DNA from: a virus
IMG/VR virus record: IMGVR_UViG_3300027816_000148
Coordinates: 1 to 48,161 of that record
Length of the DNA: 48,161 bases
Direction: 5' to 3' (one strand)
Part shown: piece after piece, positions 2,579 through 36,738 of the stretch
Position numbering within the stretch: the first letter of the stretch is position 1
Layout: every line of letters begins with the position of its first letter
The notes under the pieces: generated by a model
Seen by the model: the letters and a program-made list of their open reading frames with translations, nothing else
Database searches by the model: none
What the model was told of the DNA's origin: nothing
Program-made: the position numbers and the translations under genes

Positions 2579-3775
2579 TTATTTATCAAGTTCGCCGAAT
2601 ACCTCAACATAGTTGGCACCACGAATGGAGTCAATCAAGTTGATGTATTTGTAAAATTTTTCATTGGCCTCGGCATCATATTGATATGTGCTTAAAAAAT
2701 TCAATGAGTATACCACAGCTTTGGATATCATAAAGTTCTTTTTGTACTTCTCTCTTGCTTGTAAGAGATCGTTTAAAAACTGTTGATGTTGTTCCACGGT
2801 CATGCCATTAACATTTAGATGGTCGGCATCTCTAAGATTGCCCACCCGCAACATGATGTTATGTGTATCACAGAATTCCAGCAATGGCAACAATGCCAGA
2901 CGGCTAGTATGTTGTAACACATGATTTACTCCAACCATGCCAAACGACAAGTTTTTTAACTGTTGTAGTTTAAAAATATTGTCCCTAACTGTAGTCCAAT
3001 CGCTACCATAGCGCAGATAATCATTATGTGCACCTATACCTTCAAGGCTAACAGTGACGCTGAGCTCTTTAAACCTTGCTAACAAATCATATACCTCATC
3101 AGTCAATGATGTAGCATTGGTTGTCAAGGTCATTATTACATTTTCTGGATTTGGTATGCTTTTTAAGAAAACAATTGCTTCTGGCGTTATCAACGGCTCG
3201 CCACCATGCAAGAACACATGATCAATACGTTGATTGATCTTGTTCAAGAAGTTGGCAAAGTCGTTGGTTTTCCACCACTTTTTCTCTGCATTCTCGTCAA
3301 CTGTATAAACCCGCAGATTTTTAAATCTTGGCTTGTGTATCAGTTGTTCAGTTTGATGGCTACTTGAGCACGAGGCACTACATTGAATGCATCGTAAATT
3401 ACAAAAGTTACCAAACATCACAGTCACTGACCGTGGTGATTCAATTCGAGTTGTATCAAAATTTGAGTTAATATAATCTTGAAATATGTTGTTGAGATTC
3501 ATTCGTTGACTATCGACAACTTTGACTTCTTTATGAGAGTCAATGTCTTCTCTAGCCCAACATTTATGACAGCCAGGCGACTTTATGCCATTTATAAGAT
3601 CTTGCCTTAGACGACTCATGTCAACAGATTGCCAACGATCGTAGTCGCGAAACGTGGGTATTTCTCCAAATCCACTGGCTTGATGATCAAATTCGCAACA
3701 CGGCAGCAATGTGCCGTTAGCATTGACCTGCAACCCTACAAACGGTGCGATACAAAATGTTTTGGATTGAGTCAT
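2579..3775 (-). CDS. Twitch-domain radical SAM protein
   Basis: This 398-residue protein has the radical SAM iron-sulfur signature CxxxCxxC (C125, C129, C132), a following GGEPL motif that helps bind SAM, and an N-terminal cysteine-rich part (Cys near the start, a CC pair and CxxC) of the kind seen in twitch/SPASM-type radical SAM proteins. Such proteins are common but uncharacterised in T4-like marine phages; related enzymes modify peptides or other substrates. The start is set at 3775 because the longer reading frame would run into the tRNA at 3781-3856. A second protein with its cysteines at the same residue numbers is at 28558-29736. Substrate unknown. Confidence 0.85.
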   Translation of the reverse strand: MTQSKTFCIAPFVGLQVNANGTLLPCCEFDHQASGFGEIPTFRDYDRWQSVDMSRLRQDLINGIKSPGCHKCWAREDIDSHKEVKVVDSQRMNLNNIFQDYINSNFDTTRIESPRSVTVMFGNFCNLRCIQCSASCSSSHQTEQLIHKPRFKNLRVYTVDENAEKKWWKTNDFANFLNKINQRIDHVFLHGGEPLITPEAIVFLKSIPNPENVIMTLTTNATSLTDEVYDLLARFKELSVTVSLEGIGAHNDYLRYGSDWTTVRDNIFKLQQLKNLSFGMVGVNHVLQHTSRLALLPLLEFCDTHNIMLRVGNLRDADHLNVNGMTVEQHQQFLNDLLQAREKYKKNFMISKAVVYSLNFLSTYQYDAEANEKFYKYINLIDSIRGANYVEVFGELDK

Positions 3776-3780
3776 ATAAT

Positions 3781-3856
3781 TGGTTGCGGGAGGAGGAATC
3801 GAACCTTCCATCTGTGAGCTTATGAGACTCACGTGCGACCACTACACTTTCCCGCG
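3781..3856 (-). tRNA. tRNA with anticodon CAT, initiator-like C1xA72
   Basis: The anticodon loop is CTCATAA. The acceptor reads CGCGGGA/TCCCGCA, so the first pair is a C1xA72 mismatch, the hallmark of bacterial initiator tRNA-fMet. Other initiator marks are missing: the anticodon stem lacks the three G-C pairs and the D-stem has T11-A24. Position 8 also appears to be A instead of the near-universal U. ACCA is encoded. It is either a divergent initiator tRNA or a Met/Ile2 tRNA with a mismatched end. Confidence 0.8.
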
Positions 3857-4304: not shown

Positions 4305-4508
4305 CAAAATGCTCTGCATCCCCCGGCGGTAATTGTAGTACATCAAGATACGACGCTATCGTACCCATCACACGTACCTTCCACCCGCTTCCCGACAGGG
4401 ACCGTTCTCGCATTGCTAGCGGCCTTTCGGTTTAAAGACTACCACCCGTAGTTGTCACACTACTTCTCATCCTGTGGGTCACAGTATCCGGAGACACCCG
4501 GAACGTTC
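4305..4508 (-). ncRNA. Dense-hairpin segment of the large structured RNA
   Basis: This is the 204 nt between tRNA-Tyr and the 16-bp-stem domain. In the minus-strand sense it contains TCCGG/CCGGA, CTGTG-ACC-CACAG, GTAGT/ACTAC, CC-GAAA-GG (a GNRA tetraloop), TCCC-TGTC-GGGA and TACGA/TCGTA hairpins in a row. There is no credible ORF. I read it as part of the same ornate RNA as its neighbours. Confidence 0.6.
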
Positions 4509-4593
4509 TGGTGGAGATGATAGGGATCGAACCTATCGTGACCGAAGTCGGAGGAGTTACAGTCCCCTGCCACACCATTGCGGCGGCATCTCC
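4509..4593 (-). tRNA. tRNA-Tyr (anticodon GTA)
   Basis: This is a class II tRNA of 85 nt with the long variable arm expected of bacterial Tyr. The acceptor is GGAGATG/CATCTCC by antiparallel pairing, the anticodon loop CTGTAAC, and ACCA is encoded. Confidence 0.94.
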
Positions 4594-6293: not shown

Positions 6294-6298
6294 TAAAA

Positions 6299-6322
6299 AA
6301 GGGCACAAAAATGCCCTTTTTG
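6299..6322. terminator. Rho-independent terminator after tmRNA
   Basis: A GGGCA-CAAAAA-TGCCC hairpin has an A-run on one side and a T-run on the other, so it can act on both strands. For the minus strand it ends the tmRNA coding piece. Confidence 0.8.
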
Positions 6323-6327
6323 GTGGT

Positions 6328-6504
6328 TTCTGTTACGAGGTATTTCCTACCCTAGGCTGCGTTTAGGCTGCCAAAGCGAACTGTTCGTCGTTTGCATTTA
6401 CGTTTTGCGTGTCTTCGGCCGGGAAACTCCCAACCCTAACGGCTTCTACATTGCCGGACTGTCCATTTCGTTACTCTTGACCCAATCGATCCTGTGTCAG
6501 GCCC
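6328..6504 (-). ncRNA. ssrA: Permuted tmRNA, coding piece (tag ANDEQFALAA)
   Basis: This is the mRNA-like half of a two-piece tmRNA. It rescues stalled ribosomes by adding a degradation tag. The 5' end GGGCCTG (6504-6498) pairs in seven positions with CAGGTCC at the 3' end of the acceptor piece, which is encoded upstream; this circular order defines a permuted ssrA. The tag frame starts at the GCA resume codon at 6395 and reads ANDEQFALAA, then TAA at 6363. The ALAA end is the ClpXP-type degron. TTGGGTC (6485-6479) can pair with GATTCAA of the acceptor piece to form helix P2. The 3' limit is approximate; a terminator follows. Confidence 0.88.
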
Positions 6505-6603
6505 CTCATAAGGAATCTATGTATCACTAACCAATAAAAATAATTTATTGGAACTGCTAAACATAACACAATGTGATACCATTCTAACTTCATAAAATCC
6601 TTA

Positions 6604-6690
6604 TGGTGGACCTGGCGGGCACTGCCCCCGCGTCTTGAATCCTTTTCTCTCTACTTCATACAGTCTTAAACTTGCTCCACTATCTGAATA
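6604..6690 (-). ncRNA. ssrA: Permuted tmRNA, acceptor piece
   Basis: This is the tRNA-like 3' half of the two-piece tmRNA. It ends CAGGTCC-A-CCA, so CCA is encoded (6604-6606). The T-arm is GCGGG-GGCAGTG-CCCGC, with a T-loop lacking the usual TTCRANT, a feature I recall from alphaproteobacterial and other permuted tmRNAs. Excision of the roughly 100-nt linker (6505-6603) would give the two-piece RNA. The 5' end is approximate and may overlap the end of the small gene at 6666. Confidence 0.85.
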
Positions 6691-6845
6691 TCCAGCCTTA
6701 ACGGCTGATCCCAGTTGACCCAGGGTATGGTGCCGTCTTCTCTGGCACTCTCAATGTCATCCAAAATTTCGGTGACATTGTAGCCAGGACCAGGAATAAT
6801 ACGTTCCTGCCATAGTTGATTTTGCATTGAGATAGTGATTTTCAT
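6666..6845 (-). CDS. Small hypothetical protein (59 aa)
   Basis: An open frame of 59 codons starts MKITISMQNQ and is acidic with several Trp. There is no Shine-Dalgarno, but TAAATA lies exactly 5 nt before the ATG (6851-6856), as for other late-type starts here. Its 3' end overlaps the likely 5' end of the tmRNA acceptor piece, so precursor processing and translation would compete. Function unknown. Confidence 0.6.
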   Translation of the reverse strand: MKITISMQNQLWQERIIPGPGYNVTEILDDIESAREDGTIPWVNWDQPLRLDIQIVEQV

Positions 6846-18954: not shown

Positions 18955-19800
18955 TTACTTACCCCAGCCATTGCCCCAAAGATCAACGTGTAATCTTGGG
19001 CTATACCAGTAGCCACGTTTGAGTGCTTCGTCAGCAACGTTGATACGATTGCCATCGTACACACTGACAACACCACCCACGGGCATTACAAACACAGGAC
19101 CTGAAAACTGTGCAAGCCTGTACTCATCAACAGCACGATCCAATTCGTCAAAGTCTTGCACCTTCTCAACCACAAACTTGAGATAAGTTATACCATATGT
19201 TTCAAGATCAAAAATAATCTCTGGCTTGATTGCCTCTTCCCACTTCTCGCCTGACACACTGAGCTTGGGACTTACACTGAATGTGATCTCACCGTGCCAG
19301 TTATTCAAATACAGTTTGAAGTCTCTTGATAATTCTTGAGTACCATTGGTCTCAAATGTGATGTGTCGTAAGCCACGCTCGTGTAGTTTATCCAACAATG
19401 CAGGATATGCACGTTGCCAACCCAGCAAGGGCTCGCCACCTGTGATAACCAAGTGTACAGGATTACCATTGGGCTGTTGCCAGTTTCCATGCGGCAACAA
19501 TGCTGCCATCTTTTCCACCAGCTCATCTTCTGTGTAGGTAGGACTGAGTTCTTTGAATGCAGGATGCCATGACGCATAGCTGTCACAGCCAGTGCTCACC
19601 AGTGGCAGTTCTTCAAATGTCTTGTAGAGATGCACACTCTTGGCAACTTCATCTGCTTCTTTGCTAGACTCGCCTGGCTTGCAACCAAACCCTGAACAGG
19701 TGAAGTTACACCCAAACATACGAAGAAACACGCTGGGCACACCAACATAGCGACCTTCACCTTGTGCTGAATAAAATAGTTCTGATACTTTAAATTTCAT
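18955..19800 (-). CDS. queE: 7-carboxy-7-deazaguanine synthase (QueE)
   Basis: This radical SAM enzyme converts 6-carboxytetrahydropterin to 7-carboxy-7-deazaguanine. The 281 residues start KVSELFYSAQGEGRYVGVPS, diagnostic of QueE, then CNFTC (C31, C35) with further Cys at C40 and in GCDSY (C72), and VITGGEPLLGW for SAM binding. The spacing of the third cysteine is not the usual CxxxCxxC: either C40 or C72 may be the third cluster ligand, as in other phage QueE/NrdG-like proteins. ATGA overlap with the methyltransferase gene couples their translation. FolE and QueD are in the same operon. Confidence 0.9.
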   Translation of the reverse strand: MKFKVSELFYSAQGEGRYVGVPSVFLRMFGCNFTCSGFGCKPGESSKEADEVAKSVHLYKTFEELPLVSTGCDSYASWHPAFKELSPTYTEDELVEKMAALLPHGNWQQPNGNPVHLVITGGEPLLGWQRAYPALLDKLHERGLRHITFETNGTQELSRDFKLYLNNWHGEITFSVSPKLSVSGEKWEEAIKPEIIFDLETYGITYLKFVVEKVQDFDELDRAVDEYRLAQFSGPVFVMPVGGVVSVYDGNRINVADEALKRGYWYSPRLHVDLWGNGWGK

Positions 19801-28541: not shown

Positions 28542-28570
28542 ATAATACTACAAATAATCATGTTTGTCTA
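28542..28570 (-). promoter_or_regulatory. Possible promoter TAGACA-N17-TATTAT
   Basis: It has 17-nt spacing and lies at the end of the radical SAM gene, upstream of the 28092-28514 gene. The match is weaker than for the other promoters. Confidence 0.4.
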
Positions 28571-29736
28571 TGGGTGTATATGTCCGAAAACACTGTGTGA
28601 CTGTCCAGATGTCTGCGTTGATCAAGTTCTGCCAATCGATCAAACAGATTATGATAGCCGTTGTCTGACACAGGCACATCCAAACAATCCAGTACAAACT
28701 GTAGTTCCTGGTCGAATCTAGTGCCTGTTGGTGATCTTTGAGCAATGATTTCTTTGACCTCTGCAATGTAGGATGCAGGTAATGCCCTGGCATCACACCA
28801 GATAAACTGATGTCCATTGTTGATATAGGCAAGATTCAAGTGATCATAATCACGTGCATGACCATTGTCAAATAAGAAATCAACATAGTCCCATATGGTC
28901 TTGGCATTGAGTGCAGAGAACACCATGTTAAATTTGACCTTGTGTGTGGCGGGGATTGCGGCTTTGAGTATGTTTAAGTTTTCAGCAAACACTGTCCAAT
29001 CACCAGGATAGCGAATGTAGTTGTATCTGTCGCCCATGTCCTCAGCACTGATCAACCAATCCACGTTGGGAAACTTGGTCAGTAGCTCAAAGATTCTGTT
29101 ACCACGGATCATGCTGAGATTGGTATTCACAACAAGATGGCAGTGCGGATTGATCTCCAACAGCTTTTCCAGGATCACTTGGTTCTCTTTGATCAACAGT
29201 GGTTCGCCTCCGGCCATGTAAATCTTGCGCAAGTCTACAGCATTGTCCACAAAGTATTGTGTGACATCGGCAATGGCGCTTTCGTCAATCTTAACAAACT
29301 GTTTTAGCTCACTAGCCCAGGTTGAACTTAGATCAGGGCCGCAGTACACGCATCCATAGTTACAGGTATTTCTGAATCTCAAGTCAGCATACTGTAGTTT
29401 AAAGTTTTCAGGCCGATCAAAAAATGCTTTGTCTGGTTGCCATGTATCAAACTCAACCAGTTGATTGTCTCGGTGATACTTGCGACCTTCATCAACGTTG
29501 TTTCCGGGTGCATAACAAACCTTACAGCCTTGAGCACGTTGGCCTGCCAACATCTCTTGCTTGATTTGAATATTCTTGCTACCGTCCACAATATTTTGTA
29601 GTTTGGTCTCGTGTAAATTACCAAGATTGTTATGAGCAATACAACAACTGTCTACCCTGCCGTCGGTTTCTACATAGATACTGCCCCACGGCAATGGACA
29701 AAATGCATCATTGTTCCAGTATTGTGTATCACTCAT
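28558..29736 (-). CDS. Twitch-domain radical SAM protein
   Basis: This 392-residue protein has the cluster signature CNYGCVYC at C125, C129 and C132, a GGEPLLI SAM-binding motif, N-terminal CPLPWGSIYVETDGRVDSCC and QGCKVC. The layout and even the residue numbers of the cluster match the protein at 2579-3775, so the two are paralogues. Family members modify peptides or small molecules. No precursor peptide is apparent nearby. It lies directly downstream of the PD-ExK nuclease gene. Confidence 0.87.
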   Translation of the reverse strand: MSDTQYWNNDAFCPLPWGSIYVETDGRVDSCCIAHNNLGNLHETKLQNIVDGSKNIQIKQEMLAGQRAQGCKVCYAPGNNVDEGRKYHRDNQLVEFDTWQPDKAFFDRPENFKLQYADLRFRNTCNYGCVYCGPDLSSTWASELKQFVKIDESAIADVTQYFVDNAVDLRKIYMAGGEPLLIKENQVILEKLLEINPHCHLVVNTNLSMIRGNRIFELLTKFPNVDWLISAEDMGDRYNYIRYPGDWTVFAENLNILKAAIPATHKVKFNMVFSALNAKTIWDYVDFLFDNGHARDYDHLNLAYINNGHQFIWCDARALPASYIAEVKEIIAQRSPTGTRFDQELQFVLDCLDVPVSDNGYHNLFDRLAELDQRRHLDSHTVFSDIYTHRQT

Positions 29737-33156: not shown

Positions 33157-34081
33157 CTATTTTGGCTAAAGTTTGTCCGCCTCTCAGCGAACTAATTTGG
33201 CCAGGACGTTGCAGTTCCAACCATGATAAATCACCAAGACCTGTGTGTTGATATAAGATATCAAACCCTGCTGATTCGGCTGCCTGACAGATTGCTCGTC
33301 CAGGTGTGTAGCACATGAATTTTTGTTCAACTAATTGTACGCTGTGCGCACGATCACAATCGTTGATGGTCATGATAACCACGCCACCAGGACGTAGTTT
33401 TTGATACAGCTCCGTAAGGTAGCGTGTAATTAGTTCAATAGGACGGAAGTTAAAATAGTTATAGGCAAAGATCAATCCAAACTGGTTATTAGGCAACGCG
33501 GCCAGTATGTGTTCATCTGTTTCGTTGATCACGTAAGGTCGCAGTCTTGCCCGGTATGTGTCATTGAACTCGCTTAGTGCAGGATCCATTAGATCTCGGT
33601 GTTGATCCACAATATACAAAGGATCCAATGGCACAAGTTCTTGTATGAATGTTTCACAGCTAGGCCTGATGATCATACCAGGCACACGCCAGTCAGTATA
33701 ACTGCGTAGACGGGTGCGCAGGATCAGATTGCTTTCTTCGTCGATTGCTAGCTTTCTATTCAGCAGGTACTCGTTGCTTTCCCAGCACATTTCATCTTGA
33801 TAGAATCGTGTGCTTTCTTTGTAGTAGGCAATTTCTTGCTTTTTGATCTGTAGATCAAGATCGCTTTTGAGTCCAGAGAACACTTTGTCAAATTGATCAA
33901 ACGAATCCTTTACAGCAGAGAATCGTTTTTCAATACGATGTTTGTAAAATCCAATGTCTGACTCGTTGCTAGCAACCACATGATTTATAGCAGACAGCTC
34001 GTGTTCTGCCTGACCACGTATGGCGGTAAGACTCATACTTTCGAGTTGATTACGATAGGCAATAATGCTACTGAGTTTCAT
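33140..34081 (-). CDS. Methyltransferase-like protein with coiled-coil N-terminus
   Basis: This 313-residue protein has an N-terminal half that is helical and heptad-like (residues 1-110). The second half resembles a class I SAM methyltransferase: YIVDQHRDL, FGLIFAYNYFNFRPIELITRYLTELYQKLRPGGVVIMTINDCDR. The motif I glycine loop is not obvious, so catalytic activity is doubtful. It lies between polymerase and clamp and overlaps the polymerase ATG. I recall similar proteins at this spot in T4-like marine phages. Confidence 0.6.
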   Translation of the reverse strand: MKLSSIIAYRNQLESMSLTAIRGQAEHELSAINHVVASNESDIGFYKHRIEKRFSAVKDSFDQFDKVFSGLKSDLDLQIKKQEIAYYKESTRFYQDEMCWESNEYLLNRKLAIDEESNLILRTRLRSYTDWRVPGMIIRPSCETFIQELVPLDPLYIVDQHRDLMDPALSEFNDTYRARLRPYVINETDEHILAALPNNQFGLIFAYNYFNFRPIELITRYLTELYQKLRPGGVVIMTINDCDRAHSVQLVEQKFMCYTPGRAICQAAESAGFDILYQHTGLGDLSWLELQRPGQISSLRGGQTLAKIVARSK

Positions 34082-36738
34082 TCAAATGCAAATAAACTTG
34101 TAAATGTGTTTTCTGTGTTGGTAGCACTTGCTAAAGCCCATTCCAACACACCCAGCAAGTTGTCAACCTTTTGGTCCACAACAGTTGCTTCCATTAGTCC
34201 GTCATCAAACGGTAATTCCTTAAACCAATCTGGTAGGCGTTGTTCATCAGTGGGATAGCCGATGCTGGTCCAGCCAAGTGCATTTGACTTGAGCTTGCAC
34301 ACAATAGTTTTCATACCATCCACAATCTGCATTGAGTAGTTGTCACCATTCATCCTACGCATTTGATTCCAGTTCATTGCGGCCCTAACATGCCCGGGCA
34401 TGTTGGCTTTGCCAAGGCGAGCTTCTTCTGCCGCATACTTGGTCAAGTTATTCACACGCTTGGGCGAACCTTTTTCCCAACCTGGACGTTCCATAAACTC
34501 GTACTTGAATTCACGAATGCGTTCAATGATTGCTTCACGTGTGGCACCATGCAATGTACTATTTAGAATTTCCAACAAGAAGTCTTGAATAACCTTGGGT
34601 GTATCACTGCGCTTCAAGTCCAGCCCCATGGCCTTGGTCTTGCCTTTTTTGCCTTCTACATCCAGTCTTTTGCCTTCTAAGTCAATGATGTTTACAGCAT
34701 AGCGTTTCTTTGTGATAAACAATCCGCGATCCGCGACCAGTTCACGGCCTGCCGCAATCAACGCACCCATCTCTCTTGGACAATGAAATGCCTGTTCCAT
34801 AAAGCCTGGGAAGCTAGCATTAACTTGTTCAGCAATAGAGTCATATAATGCAATGGCAGTTTCCTTTGACCACTCCATGCGACCTTCTTCCACTTCCTTC
34901 TTTAGCACTGGCCAAGCAGTAAAGTAGCAGGAGTCTGTATCACCATAAATGATAGCTTCGCCTGTGTGATCATAGATGCCTGTGATGCATTCGTTAATGT
35001 GTGCATCCATGTGCCGGGCAATGGCACGACCAGTTAGCGTGGTACTCTGTCCAATCCTGTGATCAAAGAATCTGCAACCTGAATTCAAAATAGCACCATA
35101 CAAACTGTTCAAATTAATTTTCTTGACCAGTTGTCGCTTGTCCCAGAATGCTTCTTCTTTTTTGTCCTTGGCTGTTTTCTTCTTGGCCTGCAGTTCTTTA
35201 CGTTCTGAGTACCAACGTTCCAGCAAGCCCGGAATGATACCCTTCTTCTCATATGTAAGGATGGTACCATTTGCACTCATGATCCAGGGCTGATTGCTGT
35301 CAAACATGATGGTCCAAATCTCAGCCGCCGAGTGTGTGCTTTCTGTGCCATCTTGCCAGTCAATGGTGATCTCTGTGCCACGTTGTTGTTCCATCACAGC
35401 AGTATATTCCAAACTGCCAAACAGACCCTCCCAAGCAGCCGCAAAACTTGCGCCTTTGGCCATCTTTTCTTTGATGTAGTGGTCAGTCATGATAGGACGC
35501 AGTTGCCCCACCACAGTTTCTGGACCCATGTTCATGGCACGAATGGCCGAAGGATACAGACTGTTAATGTCAACTGATCCAATCCAATCATGCAAGCCCT
35601 TTTTAGGATAAGCTACATACGCACCTGCGGCCTGTGTGTCATCATCTGTAAGACGTTGCTTGCGATTGGGTACCACCATGCCACGTTCATGGGCTTCATT
35701 GATAATAGCTTGCTCAGTCACTGCCACAGCACCCATGGTGGTCTGGAGCAACACAGTATTGGCATGTGCCAGTTCACTTGCTAGAGCCAAGAACTGTAGT
35801 TTACGATCCAGTTTGTGTAATAGCAAGGTATCTTGTCTGTTGTATTCAATAAACTTTTTAAAGTGTTGATTGTATAGTTGATCCAGTGTGCCTTCAAACT
35901 GTGTCTTGCGTTCATTGAGTTCATATTCGCCAATGGCATCTAAACTGTAACTATGACGTTCTTCGTATGTGTACTTGCGATACAGTTGCATATAGTCCAT
36001 ATGCACACGACCAACCAAGTCATATGTTTGATTCTCACTGCCGAAGCGTTCGAACATGCGCATCTTAGGCAGTTGTCCCCACAAGCAGAATTTGCGTGTG
36101 TCGTCTTTGGATAGCACACGAGTGCAACGATTCACAGTATATGGAATATCGTAGCCCTCTGAGTTCCAGCCCGATAACACATCTGCATCTTCAATCAAGT
36201 CAAGGAATGTTTTGATCATGTCCTCTTCTCGTTCAAACAGTAGTGTGTTTTCAAAGTCCTTCACTAGTTCTTGTGCAGTCTCCCACGTCAGCCCCTTGGG
36301 CGGCACAGCTAGTGTAATCAATTGATCCAACCAGTTTAGGTAGACTGAGATTGCAGTGATGGGATTGAATGGATCACTCACTGGCGAGAAACCTCGCTCT
36401 TTGTCAAAGTCTACCTCAATGTCGAAAAATGCAACATTGAGTTCTGGGGCGTCTTGGTCTTTGTAGTTTTCTTCTAAACAACGAAAGATTGGGTTGATAT
36501 CACTCTCATACAATTGCTTGCTGGAGTGCATTTTGACTTCCTTGCGGAACTCTTTGTTGTTGCGGGTACTGAAACGACTAACAGGTGTGCCGTAGATGCT
36601 TTGGAACTTGCCTCGGGCATCGTCATAGTAGAAGATGTAGTTGGCAGGATACTCTTGGTATTTCCTCACGCCATCTCGGCGTTCTACCACATGAATGCGA
36701 TCGTGTTCACGATCATAAAGTGCGTCAATATAACTCAT
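34078..36738 (-). CDS. Family B DNA polymerase (T4 gp43-like)
   Basis: This replicative polymerase has 886 residues (T4 gp43: 898). Exonuclease motifs are FFDIEVDFD (D106, E108), GWNSEGYDIPY and YNRQDTLLL. Polymerase motifs are A DINSLYPSAIRAMN, B KINLNSLYGA, and C YGDTDSCYF. All catalytic carboxylates are present. The hydrophobic C-terminus FTSLFAFE resembles the clamp-binding tail of gp43. GGAG stands 6 nt before the ATG. The leader carries a perfect TATAAATA (36807-36814) about 70 nt upstream. The clamp and DpdA genes lie downstream in the same run. Confidence 0.97.
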   Translation of the reverse strand: MSYIDALYDREHDRIHVVERRDGVRKYQEYPANYIFYYDDARGKFQSIYGTPVSRFSTRNNKEFRKEVKMHSSKQLYESDINPIFRCLEENYKDQDAPELNVAFFDIEVDFDKERGFSPVSDPFNPITAISVYLNWLDQLITLAVPPKGLTWETAQELVKDFENTLLFEREEDMIKTFLDLIEDADVLSGWNSEGYDIPYTVNRCTRVLSKDDTRKFCLWGQLPKMRMFERFGSENQTYDLVGRVHMDYMQLYRKYTYEERHSYSLDAIGEYELNERKTQFEGTLDQLYNQHFKKFIEYNRQDTLLLHKLDRKLQFLALASELAHANTVLLQTTMGAVAVTEQAIINEAHERGMVVPNRKQRLTDDDTQAAGAYVAYPKKGLHDWIGSVDINSLYPSAIRAMNMGPETVVGQLRPIMTDHYIKEKMAKGASFAAAWEGLFGSLEYTAVMEQQRGTEITIDWQDGTESTHSAAEIWTIMFDSNQPWIMSANGTILTYEKKGIIPGLLERWYSERKELQAKKKTAKDKKEEAFWDKRQLVKKINLNSLYGAILNSGCRFFDHRIGQSTTLTGRAIARHMDAHINECITGIYDHTGEAIIYGDTDSCYFTAWPVLKKEVEEGRMEWSKETAIALYDSIAEQVNASFPGFMEQAFHCPREMGALIAAGRELVADRGLFITKKRYAVNIIDLEGKRLDVEGKKGKTKAMGLDLKRSDTPKVIQDFLLEILNSTLHGATREAIIERIREFKYEFMERPGWEKGSPKRVNNLTKYAAEEARLGKANMPGHVRAAMNWNQMRRMNGDNYSMQIVDGMKTIVCKLKSNALGWTSIGYPTDEQRLPDWFKELPFDDGLMEATVVDQKVDNLLGVLEWALASATNTENTFTSLFAFE

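Follow-up and report, generated by a model that had tools for sequence, protein, structure and literature searches.

A phage-encoded, circularly permuted tmRNA whose intervening sequence is proposed to be a slot for exchangeable small genes

tmRNA is among the most conserved RNAs of bacteria; in its circularly permuted form, the segment between the two pieces has so far been treated as processing waste. The two-piece tmRNA of phage Melnitz has been published, and 53 two-piece tmRNAs have been counted among public phage genomes (PMC9004378); one tmRNA, its form not stated, is listed in a Sinorhizobium jumbo phage (PMC11242549). Within the intervening sequence (IVS) of permuted tmRNAs, a tRNA-Ala gene has been described in one case and a repeat in another (PMC11915505). 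The former, GCA-2688965 sp002688965, resembles the locus reported here in that another gene lies within the IVS, but it is a single RNA gene in a nominally archaeal bin, whereas the phages carry protein genes in many genomes. Intron-form tmRNA likewise can have a protein gene in sequence that is removed from the mature RNA: a self-splicing group I intron interrupts the T-loop, and some of these introns carry homing endonuclease genes (PMC11915505); our locus has neither intron nor homing endonuclease, and excision would be tRNA-type processing. An earlier note on this DNA had proposed a permuted tmRNA in a phage, which is real but already known (PMC9004378); the unusual feature, a long IVS with an ORF, had escaped it. 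For protein genes in a tmRNA IVS, no previous report was found in the literature searched (mostly outside subscription journals).

The window (the whole stretch of DNA analysed, 48,161 bases) is an IMG/VR virus record of a large freshwater phage. Among named phages, the nearest matches to its B-family DNA polymerase (34078-36738) come from Sinorhizobium phage Phosso (51% identity) and Agrobacterium phage Atu_ph07 (47%), both jumbo phages and by this gene the closest cultured relatives; very close relatives in IMG/VR include contigs of up to 364 kb. The window also encodes a QueE-like radical SAM protein (18955-19800) and two more radical SAM proteins (2579-3832 and 28558-29736), with possible 7-deazaguanine or other modification roles. 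When the tmRNA region was compared with named phages by BLAST, only tRNA matches or chance matches came up. A permuted tmRNA was detected above cut-off in Phosso, and the same search found none in Atu_ph07. The comparison drew on over 100 additional viral contigs that carry related tmRNA, from which 88 distinct genes could be divided into pieces by acceptor pairing.

The locus in the window comprises the following features.

6604-6717, minus strand: tmRNA acceptor piece, its 5' end approximate (start of the Rfam alpha model match), with P2 5' strand (6660-6665), T-arm (6615-6631), acceptor 3' strand (6608-6614), A6607 and CCA (6604-6606)
6505-6603, minus strand: IVS of 99 nt, bounded by the acceptor pairing and absent from the mature tmRNA of the family
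6598-6602, minus strand: Shine-Dalgarno-like AAGGA, 4 nt upstream of ATG (6593)
6471-6593, minus strand: IVS ORF, MKLEWYHIVLCLAVPINYFYWLVIHRFLMRGLTQDRLGQE followed by a stop, hydrophobic, 40 aa, its final codons extending into the coding piece
6507-6605, minus strand: IVS-closing helix, CAUAAGGA (6605-6598) with UCCUUAUG (6514-6507), fold z -6.1, covering the Shine-Dalgarno (SD) sequence
6319-6504, minus strand: tmRNA coding piece, with 5' acceptor strand, D-loop region, P2 3' strand, tag frame and 3' domain
6363-6395, minus strand: tag reading frame ANDEQFALAA plus stop (GCA..UAA), from ARAGORN and the sequence
6296-6321: terminator-like hairpin with a 10-bp stem directly past the 3' end of the coding piece, from a scan and the sequence; it came up on the plus strand in the scan, with a T-rich tail after it when read on the minus strand

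Positions 6319-6717 (minus strand) are an intact, phage-encoded, circularly permuted tmRNA. The earlier note had read the locus in this way, with the tag ANDEQFALAA, and had pointed to ARAGORN and two-piece tmRNA models as a check. Both bear it out. ARAGORN calls a permuted tmRNA with this tag at c[6272,6696], in addition to 19 tRNA genes in the window. The Rfam model tmRNA_permuted (RF04321) matches over its full length at 6665-6363(-) with 108.1 bits (E 2.9e-20, cut-off 47), and alpha_tmRNA (RF01849) matches at 6717-6319(-) with 71.8 bits (E 1e-17, cut-off 50). As had been claimed, the acceptor piece is encoded upstream of the coding piece, with its CCA at 6606-6604, and seven acceptor base pairs form across the pieces, CAGGUCC (6614-6608) with GGGCCUG (6504-6498), among them G3.U70, the signal for alanine. 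The pieces are further joined by the P2 helix, which has six pairs, GACUGU (6665-6660) with ACAGUC, rather than the seven first counted. The tag begins with an alanine codon and ends in a degradation signal of a hydrophobic residue followed by Ala-Ala. The locus thus has piece order, acceptor, T-arm, D-loop region, P2, tag frame and 3' domain in common with bacterial tmRNAs of RF04321 and RF01849. A second, sub-threshold RF04321 match at 4315-4536 overlaps tRNA-Tyr and looks like its T-arm.

Several features of the wider set are signs of selection for function, as judged from sequence comparison. G3.U70 is kept in all 88 parsed phage genes, and so is an intact tag frame; the tags start with Ala-Asn, nearly all end in a hydrophobic residue plus AA, and the commonest are ANDSQFALAA (36 genes) and ANDEQFALAA (26). 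P2 pairing is maintained through differing sequences in relatives (GACUGU/ACAGUC, UGCUGU/ACAGCA, AGCGU/GCGCU). The acceptor end is CCA in 69 genes, CCU in 17 and CCG in 2; the last two could be repaired by a CCA-adding enzyme. A search for SmpB genes that was positive in ten control genomes found none in 28 phage records of the clade, so the phage tmRNA would have to rely on SmpB from the host. Such a supply by the host is expected, and the absence of the gene from the phages is still compatible with membership among permuted tmRNAs. Two side observations concern unusual members. The tmRNAs of L086 and L087 have a 27-aa tag (ANVNKTVTVSGKNIKFSARSAKEALAV in L086, similar in L087) whose protein sequence is conserved despite silent DNA changes and which ends in LAV instead of LAA. 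In 17 of the 88 genes (e.g. L288 and L151), a 23- to 24-nt IVS is accompanied by ACCU for ACCA and a hairpin that pairs ACCU with AGGU.

The IVS sets the phage genes apart from bacterial ones. In 30 bacterial permuted tmRNAs it spans 5-47 nt, with one of 115 nt, and is mostly a plain hairpin, whereas in the window it is 99 nt long with an ORF, and the 88 phage genes range from 23 to 491 nt. A short, non-coding IVS is a feature of the bacterial genes, not a formal defining criterion for permuted tmRNA. Three classes of phage IVS were distinguished: those of at most 34 nt, which include many relatives with 23-34 nt between the pieces; structured ones of ~55-108 nt without a good ORF; and those filled by one ORF. 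Forty-nine phage IVS reach 80 nt or more; in 35 of them a single ORF covers at least 70% of the sequence, and the remaining 14 have no such ORF. An SD-like motif lies in the first 12 nt of the IVS in 31 of the 35 ORF-filled cases, usually right after CCA, and in 1 of the 14 others (Fisher 1e-7). Compared with dinucleotide shuffles, ORF length is significant (p<=0.05) in 16 of 17 IVS over 160 nt, a count from which Phosso was left out. The ORF stop lies inside the IVS in 23 genes, in 18 of which it is a TGA separated by a single nucleotide from the mature 5' end of the coding piece (..TGAT|GGG); in 12 genes the frame continues into the coding piece, and one of these read-through frames, that of L110, lacks both an SD and a conserved product and probably arose by chance.

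The IVS without ORFs show features of their own. Phosso (L109; record PV764938, 349596-350198) has an unannotated permuted tmRNA with a 410-nt IVS and no clear ORF. The IVS of L249 (2587-2687 of its contig, minus strand) has no ORF and folds into D-loop- and T-loop-like hairpins, and those of L186 and L224 contain T-arm-like hairpins; the structured, ORF-less class may be tRNA mimics. A Y RNA-like identity (YrlA, RF02553) was considered for ORF-less IVS and rejected: the related loci L249 and L222 reach 36.8 bits (E 1.8e-4 for L249) against a cut-off of 69, the window has no match, and the model also matches most control genomes. Eleven weak YrlA-like matches occur on contig L333 (375,937 bases; best 36.7 bits at 275391-275459), most of which may be tRNAs.

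The cargo varies among the phages, and several of the IVS ORFs belong to recognizable protein families. Pfam matches were obtained to DUF2061 (72.6 bits, cut-off 23.1), Oxidored-like (43.2, cut-off 24) and CxxCxxCC (26.6, cut-off 23), and PHROGs and Pfam searches of the cargo ORFs gave no convincing family beyond these three; the other cargo consists of single membrane spans and of proteins of up to 151 aa without a family. Genes for DUF2061 membrane proteins are also free-standing in related contigs, the gene in the L162 IVS has a counterpart directly upstream of the tmRNA in L083 and L137, and that in the L179 IVS is free-standing in L087. Since cargo families are found free-standing or upstream of the tmRNA, the slot appears to exchange genes with the rest of the genome. 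Between homologous cargo pairs, 39 of 67 changes fall at codon position 3 (p 2.6e-5). On these sequence comparisons, we propose that the IVS serves as a slot into which small genes can be exchanged. In L086 and L243, the IVS offers the Oxidored-like frame no usual start codon; upstream, the frame stays open as far as an ATG in the acceptor piece, 56 nt ahead of the IVS, and from there it runs through T-arm, CCA and IVS into the coding piece.

A second phage lineage shows the same arrangement. The ssrA of Melnitz, a cultured phage of OM43 (Methylophilales), resembles the window in being a phage two-piece tmRNA with an SD and a conserved ORF in its IVS; it differs in belonging to the Kyanoviridae, in its clearly alpha-type tmRNA and in the glutamine riboswitch that follows. 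Its 142-nt IVS contains the SD GGAGAAG and an ORF beginning MFKWLSKTRLVVITRDYFRERNRKADAKIPKYLSGTRSVY (peptide beginning MFKWLSKTRLVVITRDYF), and its record (MZ577097) annotates the tmRNA only, with no CDS within. Homologs that match most of the ORF are present in 18 marine contigs, a number that leaves out three further matches covering only the end located in the tmRNA. The SD is kept in 10 of 10 Melnitz-type homologs examined, changes are in excess at the third codon position (e.g. 13/11/26), and a permuted tmRNA is present in 7 of 7 marine contigs checked. The span is short in HTVC008M, and in Caulobacter phage CcrColossus an 81-nt IVS contains no ORF. A gene-bearing IVS is thus not universal in phages, and to judge by these sequences it occurs in at least two unrelated groups.

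Three homologous IVS together make the case for the window ORF. Taken alone, its open frame is no longer than expected by chance in shuffles (p 0.13). However, the same protein occurs in two other tmRNA backbones, L281 (MTIEWYHIVLCLAVPINYIYWCIIHRFLMRGLT) and L344 (beginning MKHLEWYQILLCLAVPINYFYWCVLHSFFMMG), and changes between the window and L344 number 5/1/10 at codon positions 1/2/3. We consider it quite probable that this ORF is a real gene, and its product is probably membrane-inserted. The reality of the IVS ORFs, as assessed by sequence comparison, is well supported across the family and moderately so for the window. The window ORF crosses the position where RNase P is expected to cut, so that cleavage there would separate the ORF from its stop codon.

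The two ends of the IVS are joined by a helix, which in the window extends the acceptor stem. Across IVS of at least 50 nt, this helix has a mean of 10.2 bp, compared with 5.9 when partners are swapped between genes, and reaches at least 7 bp in 88% of IVS versus 29% with swapped partners; changes on both sides within the family indicate covariation. In ORF-bearing IVS the closing helix takes in the SD, and the final codons of the ORF (e.g. KVSL and stop) fall in its 3' strand. Because the SD overlaps the helix, AAGGA may serve the helix partly or alone; for the same reason, the site would be hidden once the precursor folds. A ribosome positioned on the stop of the ORF would sit over both the RNase P site and the acceptor strand.

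The tmRNA anatomy, ORFs, SD sequences, codon-level selection, content exchange and helix, all drawn from sequence comparison, are best explained by an intact permuted phage tmRNA with a gene slot in its IVS, where cargo translation competes with maturation (probability roughly 0.74); from them we infer processing, charging, tagging, translation and competition. A single transcript would be cut by host tRNA-processing enzymes into an acceptor and a coding piece, which would be held together by acceptor stem and P2 and charged with alanine. With host SmpB as partner, ANDEQFALAA would be added to nascent chains on stalled ribosomes. The IVS would double as a gene slot, with its own ribosome-binding site and a small gene in the window and other small genes in relatives. 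Since the ribosome-binding site is paired in a helix stacked on the acceptor stem, cargo would be translated mainly from nascent or unfolded transcripts, and its translation would compete with folding and cutting of the tmRNA. More tentatively, the locus might act as a switch through which one transcript yields either cargo protein or rescue RNA, with phages swapping the cargo freely. In the cargo state, ribosomes would keep the closing helix open and a terminating ribosome would cover the RNase P site; in the rescue-RNA state, the helix would be closed and the ribosome-binding site hidden.

Other readings of the locus appear less probable. The p value of 0.13 for the window frame, the structured, ORF-less IVS of many relatives and the 410-nt IVS of Phosso are what would be expected if the permuted phage tmRNA were an ordinary one, its long IVS were non-coding and the window ORF were a chance frame in an AT-rich loop. 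This is rather unlikely, given that the window protein is conserved in L281 and L344 on different tmRNA backbones, with mostly third-position changes relative to L344, and that SD, stop placement, Pfam matches and codon bias extend across the family. It is less likely still that the tmRNA is a decoy or decayed copy that binds the host's SmpB or EF-Tu and so blocks its trans-translation, with the locus kept for its small ORFs. Such a role would have a parallel in the tag-less phage tmRNA of DS6A, reported to inhibit endogenous tmRNA (PMC11915505), and would agree with the CCU and CCG ends of 17 and 2 of the 88 genes and with the lack of a phage SmpB in 28 records; however, the tag frame with its Ala-Asn start and almost invariable LAA-type end is intact in 88/88, G3.U70 is present in 88/88, and P2 varies while its pairing is kept.

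The two pieces could also be separate small RNA genes on either side of an unrelated gene, with no common precursor, and some IVS are indeed nearly 500 nt long with a complete gene (L179). We regard this as very improbable: only 23-34 nt separate the pieces in many relatives, the closing helix spans the ORF, joins the IVS ends and changes on both sides, and the terminator in the window stands only after the coding piece.

The tmRNA does not fix the host, for which an alpha- or betaproteobacterium is plausible. The earlier note had taken the permuted gene to point to a host with a tmRNA of this type, an inference that proved weak. In the phage clade, alpha-type T-loops (GGCRGTN) and other T-loops carry the same tags, and the best model is alpha_tmRNA for some relatives and beta_tmRNA for several. 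The tag search it had suggested for finding the host, run over 84,980 genomes, returned exact matches in Rhodocyclaceae, Uliginosibacterium, Limnobacter, Pasteurellaceae and a few others, all with one-piece tmRNAs, in addition to L137 (contig CAIMTR010000195, 3004 bases), which is binned as a gammaproteobacterium, carries a phage-type tmRNA and 7 tRNAs, and is probably a misbinned phage fragment. RF04321 scores above cut-off in 157 of 398 Pseudomonadota genomes.

If the preferred reading is true, selected protein genes reside in the IVS of two unrelated phage lineages, and standard annotation, in which the IVS is masked as tmRNA, skips a class of phage small proteins. As Melnitz is in culture, with OM43 H5P1 as its host, the prediction is directly testable. 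The permuted layout, of unclear use so far, would then provide room for embedded genes, and a single transcript may couple the rescue of ribosomes to the expression of small proteins.
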